Shown one piece after another: positions 39,771-40,622 of a DNA stretch of 64,000 bases (the first letter of the stretch is position 1; each line of letters begins with the position of its first letter). The stretch is from Sulfobacillus thermosulfidooxidans (GTDB lineage: Bacteria; Bacillota; Sulfobacillia; Sulfobacillales; Sulfobacillaceae), in the NCBI RefSeq assembly GCF_001280565.1, contig NZ_LGRO01000001.1, forward strand, positions 3,038,001 to 3,102,000. Direction: 5' to 3'. Below the pieces are notes generated by a model. The model did not search any database. It was not told the DNA's origin and saw nothing but the letters and a program-made list of their open reading frames with translations. The translations under genes were made by a program, and so were the position numbers.

Positions 39771-40160
39771 TTATTTTTGTTGATGAACCGGCAACTTTTT
39801 CCAAGGACCCACGTCACCTTGCCGATAAAAAATCGATCCAAGAAAATGCGGGTGGGTGGCCTCAATACTTAAACCTAAAAACGTATTAGGGGAAAAATGC
39901 CTGGTATATGCACCAGATTTTATTATGGTGGGCACGGTAATCATCCATACGCTAAGAAGTTGATGTTGTGGACCTTCCCCTGAGCCAATGAAGGTGACGT
40001 GGGATCCTCCAACATGTTGTTGCACCCAAGCTGTAGCGGCAGGAAAGCTGGCAGGGCTGACGTCGACATTGGTGGCGGAAATACTGCCACAACCCGTTAA
40101 AACGGTAGATAAAATCACCGCAATAATTGCGATGGGATGTAAAGCCGAAATCCGCCTCAT
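39771..40160 (-). CDS. Small lipoprotein of unknown function
   Basis: 129 residues. A lipoprotein signal (MRRISALHPIAIIAVILSTVLTGC) has its lipobox LTGC with Cys24. The mature part, about 105 residues, has no family I recognise. The ATG at 40160 has no ribosome site because the right end of the IscB-derived element lies immediately upstream; the fragment's TGA stop and this ATG overlap as ATGA. Expression may have been altered by the insertion. Confidence 0.7.
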   Translation of the reverse strand: MRRISALHPIAIIAVILSTVLTGCGSISATNVDVSPASFPAATAWVQQHVGGSHVTFIGSGEGPQHQLLSVWMITVPTIIKSGAYTRHFSPNTFLGLSIEATHPHFLGSIFYRQGDVGPWKKLPVHQQK

Positions 40161-40312
40161 CGGATATTTGTGGCGCGGAAATTCTGGCCTTTAGGCCGGT
40201 GAGGAGCGCCAATCCCTCCTTCCTGTGTGGCTCGTTCTAATAACAACCGCGTCCGACTCTCCGAACAGGGCATTAGGGGTTTTTGGTGTTTGTCGAGAAC
40301 AAATACCGCCAT
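40157..40312 (-). pseudogene. iscB: IscB fragment: PLMP domain only, rest deleted
   Basis: A 51-codon frame. Residues 1-28 are the conserved IscB N-terminal PLMP/RRXRR-type segment: MAVFVLDKHQKPLMPCSES, then RTRLLLERA. In complete IscB this continues into the RuvC-I, bridge-helix, HNH and RuvC-II/III parts (about 400 residues in all). Here the sequence departs right after LLERA and runs through an unrelated tail that is the translated right-end hairpin of the element. A strong ribosome site (AAAAGGAG, about 8 bases before the ATG) remains. No nuclease residue survives. It looks like an internal deletion joining the start of the gene to the end of the element. Confidence 0.85.
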
Positions 40313-40622
40313 GGGTCCTCTCCTTTTGCCCTTACGGGCCTGGTGACGGGGAGGTTTCCGTCCCTCTCTCCTCGAGATGGTGTGGAACCGGCTCCCACCG
40401 TTTCCCGTGGTGTTGGGAAATTTTGGCGCTTTATCTTTCGTCCGCATGATTCCCGCCTTCCAGTGTCCGGGACTGAGGAAGCATCTCAAAGTGGGTCTTG
40501 ACGACCTACCCCACGCGGCTGCCGGATCACTCCGTTCCCCTTCGGCCAACCCAGCTTGCTTGCACCTCCATCCTTCCAAGTGGGGCAGTTGACGGATATT
40601 CCTCCCGTGCTCACGGCGATCC
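40161..40622 (-). mobile_element. Minimal IscB/HEARO (IS200/605-like) element, non-autonomous
   Basis: Reads on the minus strand as left-end hairpin, omega-RNA, PLMP fragment, right-end hairpin. The left end has CCGTG-AG-CACGG (40605-40616). The right end has GGCC-TAAA-GGCC nested in GGCGC...GCGCC (about 40166-40211), as in IS200/605-type ends. The same tetranucleotide ATGA flanks both ends (40623-40626 and 40157-40160), followed by GG each time. No TnpA transposase is present, so movement would need help in trans. Exact ends are inferred from these repeats. Confidence 0.75.
40313..40622 (-). ncRNA. Omega-RNA (HEARO RNA) of the IscB element
   Basis: About 310 nucleotides directly upstream of the IscB start, the usual place and size for an omega-RNA. 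Helices visible on the minus strand are: left-end CCGUG/CACGG; a long-range helix CUGCCCCAC (40580-40588) with GUGGGGUAG (40506-40514); inside it GGUUGGCC (40544-40551) with GGCAGCC (40517-40523); CAGU/ACUG; CACC/GGUG; GACGG (40358-40362) with CCGUC (40345-40349); and GCCC-GUAA-GGGC (40328-40339), a GNRA-capped stem. The guide would be encoded at the 5' boundary, next to 40622 and into the flank. All helices appear intact although the protein gene is destroyed. Confidence 0.85.

Follow-up and report, generated by a model that had tools for sequence, protein, structure and literature searches.

In the window, the 64,000-nucleotide stretch of Sulfobacillus thermosulfidooxidans DNA analysed here, a 433-bp IscB (HEARO/OMEGA) element was found on the minus strand of the chromosome (40593-40161), placed between the ribosome site and the start codon of a lipoprotein gene. 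Comparison with related elements suggests that it is an IscB remnant in decay, with a right end and a mini-ORF that probably still supply translation initiation to the interrupted gene. In the course of events that we propose, the ATGA start of the lipoprotein gene offered an NTGA motif; an IscB element with IS200/IS605-type ends would have inserted on its 5′ side and parted this start codon from its GGGAGG ribosome site; a later internal in-frame deletion would have taken nearly all of IscB, and the omega-RNA would have drifted out of function. The element's own Shine-Dalgarno (SD) sequence, just 5′ of the right-end stem, would serve the lipoprotein gene as a hairpin-bridged ribosome site, and the mini-ORF ending in the ATGA overlap would allow translational coupling, so that the bridged site, coupling or both could translate the lipoprotein. 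The features are as follows.

40161-40593, minus strand: whole remnant element, 433 bp, with GTCAAC as left end and a right end just 5′ of ATGA
40313-40593, minus strand: decayed omega-RNA (HEARO) scaffold (RF02033, 30.3 bits; 10 column deviations, 7 broken pairs)
40157-40312, minus strand: mini-IscB ORF, 51 aa, IscB codons 1-28 plus C-terminal tail (TQEGG-G), with its TGA within ATGA
40215-40221, minus strand: Shine-Dalgarno AAGGAGG of the right end (anti-SD duplex -12.2 kcal/mol, the strongest of 76 elements)
40206-40211, minus strand: 5′ arm of the terminal stem (UGGCGC), pairing with 40176-40171 (pair probability 0.54)
40171-40176, minus strand: 3′ arm of the terminal stem (GCGCCA), pairing with the 5′ arm
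40157-40160, minus strand: ATGA, at once transposon-adjacent motif, lipoprotein start codon and mini-ORF stop (TGA)
40601-40606, minus strand: host ribosome site GGGAGG, now 440 nt away from the start codon, within the 'guide' flank
39771-40160, minus strand: host lipoprotein gene, 129 aa, no Pfam match, 90% identical to its ortholog in the congener G006

Both element ends are fixed because G006 carries the two flanks joined without an insert, as GGGAGGAATTTCC|ATGACT at G006:C1 ~2037812. An element had been predicted at 40157-40622 from the letters of the stretch; its presence there held, while its limits are those set by this empty site, 40593-40161. The left end (GTCAAC) coincides with the start of the HEARO model and with the start of all intact relatives, and the right end is a palindrome typical of IscB elements. 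The element has the left-end RNA, host-derived guide, right-end palindrome and NTGA in the 3′ flank of an IscB (OMEGA) element, and its clean insertion at a fixed motif with no target duplication, as seen from the empty site in G006, is of the IS200/IS605 type. The sequence AATATCC, which stands on both sides, was considered as a 7-base target duplication and rejected as element-borne, because AATATCTG stands at the right end of G006:C1:2943433. The empty site is known from one congener, where precise excision may be an alternative. A search of a phage collection gave no match.

The insertion splits the GGGAGG ribosome site of the lipoprotein gene from its ATGA start codon. In the empty allele of G006, GGGAGG lies 7 nt from the ATG; in the window, no Shine-Dalgarno was found within linear reach of the lipoprotein ATG. 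Against the G006 ortholog, the lipoprotein shows 90% identity with dN 0.047, dS 0.66 and dN/dS 0.07, a pairwise value (window versus G006) that therefore does not isolate selection after the insertion to the lineage of the window. The TGA of the mini-ORF (40159-40157) overlaps the ATG of the lipoprotein gene (40160-40158). The position of the element at a start codon had been missed in the original prediction.

Deletion of the nuclease, which that prediction had claimed, was confirmed. No RuvC, bridge-helix or HNH sequence is left in the element, which keeps of IscB only the PLMP start (codons 1-28) and the extreme C-terminus and whose frame enters the right-end hairpin; an IscB nuclease, with PLMP, RuvC, bridge helix and HNH all encoded, is thus not present. 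A strong ribosome site is indeed followed by the first ~28 IscB codons, with a Pfam RRXRR match (E 4e-6) over codons 1-25 of the mini-ORF. Past codon 28 (LLLERA), the mini-ORF reads TQEGG-G, which is the C-terminal tail of IscB in the tail's own frame, and the tail ACACAGGAAGGAGGG (ACA CAG GAA GGA GGG) ends, in the same frame, an IscB relic in G006 (locus L153). These shared tail codons indicate that an internal in-frame deletion joined both ends of the gene; judged by them, the 51-aa frame is the product of such a deletion and no simple truncation. The frame of the mini-ORF is also open for 162 codons across the entire decayed RNA (40645-40157, minus strand); this 162-aa open frame was set aside as chance.

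Deletion derivatives of related elements were gathered from 35 genomes. Among 15 large internal deletions with the start codon retained, 13 of them from an automated comparison and two (the window and G006:218k) added by eye, 12 are in frame versus an expected third (p 3e-4, a post hoc test on 15 distinct cases); most of the short frames in Rhabdochromatium are contig ends and were left out of this count. The excess fits selection for an open frame that would reach the host start codon. The nearest counterpart of the window copy stands in Acidithiobacillus marinus (L267, G009:C43:20000-21900), where 22 N-terminal codons are fused in frame to codon 427, giving a 67-aa ORF whose TGA overlaps the ATG start of the next gene (ATGA). 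At L114 (G006:C1:218519-218960), only 21 codons of IscB come after a 128-bit HEARO RNA, and they are joined in frame to the tail. A nuclease-less in-frame deletion (~110 aa) with an intact omega-RNA was also found on the Allochromatium tepidum plasmid pAt1 (L154, 2909-3594), where the element adjoins the ATGA start of a DUF29 gene, whose annotated start runs upstream into the element.

The minus strand does carry a HEARO-type RNA, as had been claimed: Rfam RF02033 aligns over its full length to 40593-40360 (30.3 bits, E 3e-4 genome-wide). The claim that the guide RNA was kept with its helices intact did not survive closer analysis. The score lies below the gathering score of 83 bits, whereas the closest relatives reach 94-109 bits, and a HEARO covariance score under threshold was an outcome that the original prediction had itself named as speaking against it. 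We compared the RNA with 58 non-redundant RNAs, two of them on plasmids, from loci whose IscB is 400 aa or longer (Sulfobacillus, Acidithiobacillus, Cupriavidus, Chromatiales, Halomonas and others), a set in which the RNA subfamily of the window may be poorly sampled. At the 72 columns conserved at ≥95% in the intact set, the window RNA mismatches 10 (14%), while intact RNAs, scored leave-one-out, show 0-5 deviations, mostly 0-1. It forms 85% of the consensus pairs versus 93.6-100% in intact RNAs, and the 7 pairs broken in it are 95-100% paired in intact copies. The GCCC-GUAA-GGGC hairpin is genuine and conserved. The other two helices that had been described, the long-range CUGCCCCAC/GUGGGGUAG pairing and the inner GGUUGGCC/GGCAGCC helix, are absent from the consensus structure; by our estimate, chance alone would give roughly one 9-bp complementarity of this kind in 433 nt. 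Skipping-rope and miRNA matches in a permissive Rfam scan were rejected as chance.

By these comparisons, the window RNA is a HEARO homologue but no intact member, and its deviations point to an omega-RNA that has drifted out of function. Because near-invariant positions and pairs have decayed, a very recent deletion of the nuclease, one of the explanations first offered, is not supported. The 14% deviation at conserved columns is comparable to the silent divergence possible on one lineage (dS to G006 0.38-0.66). Near-perfect RNAs persist in other nuclease-less or pseudogene copies (the A. tepidum plasmid, G005_C150, C139a and C119); therefore, loss of the protein need not bring immediate loss of the RNA.

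A second explanation first offered was that the RNA is an orphan, or belongs to a functional non-autonomous element, and is used in trans by an IscB elsewhere. A HEARO-like RNA does stand at the start of the element, but its near-invariant pairs are broken, and a genome-wide RRXRR search with follow-up turned up no HNH-type IscB free of interruption. Six HEARO matches reach E ≤ 0.01, the window copy included; beside the others lie one HNH-type IscB with an in-frame TAG (C1:215k), another that is internally deleted (C2:560k), two HNH-less IsrB genes without interruption (C1:578k and 609k) and an N-terminal fragment (529k). An IsrB-like gene at 334k has no HEARO match, and another such fragment lies at 1010k; the HNH-less IsrB-like genes of this genome carry RNAs unlike that of the window. 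The 433-bp unit occurs once in the genome and in none of seven congeners, which goes against an amplified non-autonomous (MITE-like) family, and the comparison of the guide flank with the genome that had been proposed gave no second match within 3 mismatches. An apparently uninterrupted Y1 transposase (164-aa frame, G000:C2:473527-473886) could act on such ends in trans and so mobilise them. On the RNA decay, the missing HNH-type partner and the missing second target, the trans-acting omega-RNA was rejected, and we consider any such use in trans very improbable; RNA decay likewise makes guide-directed cleavage of the empty site by an IscB in trans unlikely. The remaining Y1 matches in the genome are mostly fragments or contain stops. 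At L010 (G000:C1:214150-215790), a near-complete HNH-type IscB with a 145-bit RNA is interrupted by a single in-frame TAG.

The part of the element that probably still works is its right-hand one. Across IscB elements, an SD-stem-start layout was found in 54 of 76 right ends versus 1.7% of dinucleotide shuffles, and a closed stem is predicted to leave a median of 11 nt between SD and start codon. The predicted stem probability has a median of 0.93, with the start codon mostly unpaired. Stem variants covary (GCGGGAA/TTCCCGC, GCGAGAA/TTCTCGC, GGCGC/GCGCC and GGCACGGC/GCCGTGCC), and one stem pair alternates between G-C (in 22) and A-T (in 22). The terminal stem is also the DNA palindrome expected for a Y1 transposase, and covariation alone is therefore no proof of a role as RNA; we know of no role in the Y1 transposase process for an SD beside the stem. 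We infer that the SD-stem-start layout would drive translation, hence the persistence of the right end and of the open frame. The window itself is among the weaker cases, with an effective spacing of 15 nt, a stem probability of 0.54 and an alternative, competing fold that hides the SD under CUCCUC; with this spacing and this fold, coupling through the mini-ORF may therefore matter more in the window. Its right-end folding is no better than that of shuffles (z -0.5 and -0.35). Its right-end SD and stem are perfect, while the conserved columns of its RNA deviate by 14%.

These data also bear on whether the remnant serves the gene at all. A plain dead relic, decaying neutrally after the deletion, would have its in-frame mini-ORF (a 1 in 3 chance for the frame) and ATGA overlap by coincidence, and the lipoprotein would be poorly expressed, started elsewhere or not needed. 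The clear decay of the RNA and the poor folding of the bridged site in the window are what such a relic would show, and chance could keep a frame of 51 codons open. This reading is possible but somewhat doubtful, since the lipoprotein is conserved (dN/dS 0.07) with no linear SD, large deletions in relatives are in frame in 12 of 15 cases, and the SD and stem of the right end are perfect next to a deviating RNA. Alternatively, the RNA might have become a structured 5′ leader and now regulate the lipoprotein, as a sensor or by guide-based repression. A conserved gene does have the element in its 5′ leader, and the element's right end has two competing folds, one with the SD open and one with it covered; yet no homologous leader without IscB origin was found, folding does not exceed that of shuffles, and the conserved positions drift with no sign of new constraint, so we give this idea hardly any weight. 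A remnant whose right end and mini-ORF would still start translation of the lipoprotein is the reading that we prefer.

A scan of species genomes yielded 80 IscB loci, in 64 of which a right end was recognisable. ATGA follows the right end in 61 of these 64 located 3′ junctions. In 49 of the 61 testable elements (80%), the junction ATGA begins an ORF of 80 aa or longer, versus 29% of 2133 control ATGA sites taken from these flanks (p 1.7e-16). An SD 4-mer occurs in the 16-nt left flank in 39% versus 10% in the control, SD and ORF occur together in 34% versus 4.7% (p 3e-13), and the IscB stop codon overlaps the host start in 21 of 64 loci. By eye, many of the junction-ORF products look like ordinary N-termini, for example HisC-, LeuB-, PurM-, UbiG- and UbiA-like ones. 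On annotated plasmids, the junction is precisely where a CDS starts in P. paraeruginosa, P. veronii, P. aeruginosa, C. basilensis and two Polaromonas. A 1-nt stop/start overlap is seen in three of these cases, and the P. veronii insertion is apparently identical with that of P. aeruginosa. Start-codon placement is not clear in more distant plasmid IscBs (Geoalkalibacter, Aneurinibacillus, A. caldus and S. canus). A right-end-only IscB relic (tail, SD and hairpin) lies directly 5′ of the ATGA start of another gene in G006 (L153 2355-2515, G006:C1:2943355-2943515), and at L140 (G003:C118:88241-88476) the 5′ leader of a murA-like gene contains an element cut down to its RNA and a few bases of the right end.

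Start codons in bacteria have the form NTG. The published transposon-adjacent motif (TAM) of IsrB is NTGA (NTGA/NTG) (PMC9581776). We put forward, as a proposal that could equally well prove right or wrong, that IscB/IsrB transposons seek start codons: the NTGA target would be a start codon, the guide would be the ribosome-binding region of the gene, and the right end would be a portable ribosome site, in which a Shine-Dalgarno is followed by a stem whose folding removes the distance to the host ATG, the host start frequently being overlapped by the stop codon of IscB. Insertion would thus replace the translation start and not destroy it, and the window would be an end state, in which nuclease and guide RNA are lost while the right end and the open frame serve as the new leader of the gene. 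If true, landing between ribosome site and start codon with replacement would explain both the target motif and the harmlessness of insertion, and mutations in the right-end SD or stem should silence the downstream gene. In the open literature within our scope, which did not include the key HEARO/IscB papers, neither start-codon placement nor a rebuilt ribosome site was found for IscB/IsrB. Weinberg et al. reportedly described HEARO elements 5′ of ATGA/GTGA, and HEARO RNAs without an ORF, in 2009, so that insertion at such a motif may already have been noted then. IscB is regarded as the likely ancestor of Cas9, and to our knowledge the survival of IscB transposons in dense bacterial genomes is a largely untested question. 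The remnant in the window is modest; for a specialist, the surprise would lie in its intact relatives, with their placement at start codons and their hairpin-bridged ribosome site. Stand-alone omega-RNAs were reportedly described by Altae-Tran et al. in 2021. At nuclease-less omega-RNA loci, the integrity of the RNA should be checked before they are named trans-acting guides.

Compared with known systems, the window copy shares with the HEARO/IscB omega-RNA (RF02033) the GTCAAC start, the GCCC-GTAA-GGGC hairpin, the GATGCTTCC-TCAGTCCC core, the use of host flank as guide and an IscB start codon directly after the RNA; different from RF02033/OMEGA systems, it scores below gathering, has 7 near-invariant pairs broken and is without nuclease. 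Its 3′ flank ATGA fits the IsrB/IscB elements with an NTGA TAM (PMC9581776), but here the motif doubles as the start codon of a host gene. Like non-autonomous IS200/IS605 derivatives of the MITE/PATE type, it has kept both ends and lost the coding region, whereas it is single-copy, retains RNA and ORF remnants and gives no sign of amplification. Closest to it are L267 and G006:C1:218519, in which, as in the window, the N-terminal 21-22 codons are fused in frame to the IscB tail without a nuclease, although, unlike that of the window, their RNAs look intact (128 bits in G006; L267 by eye only).
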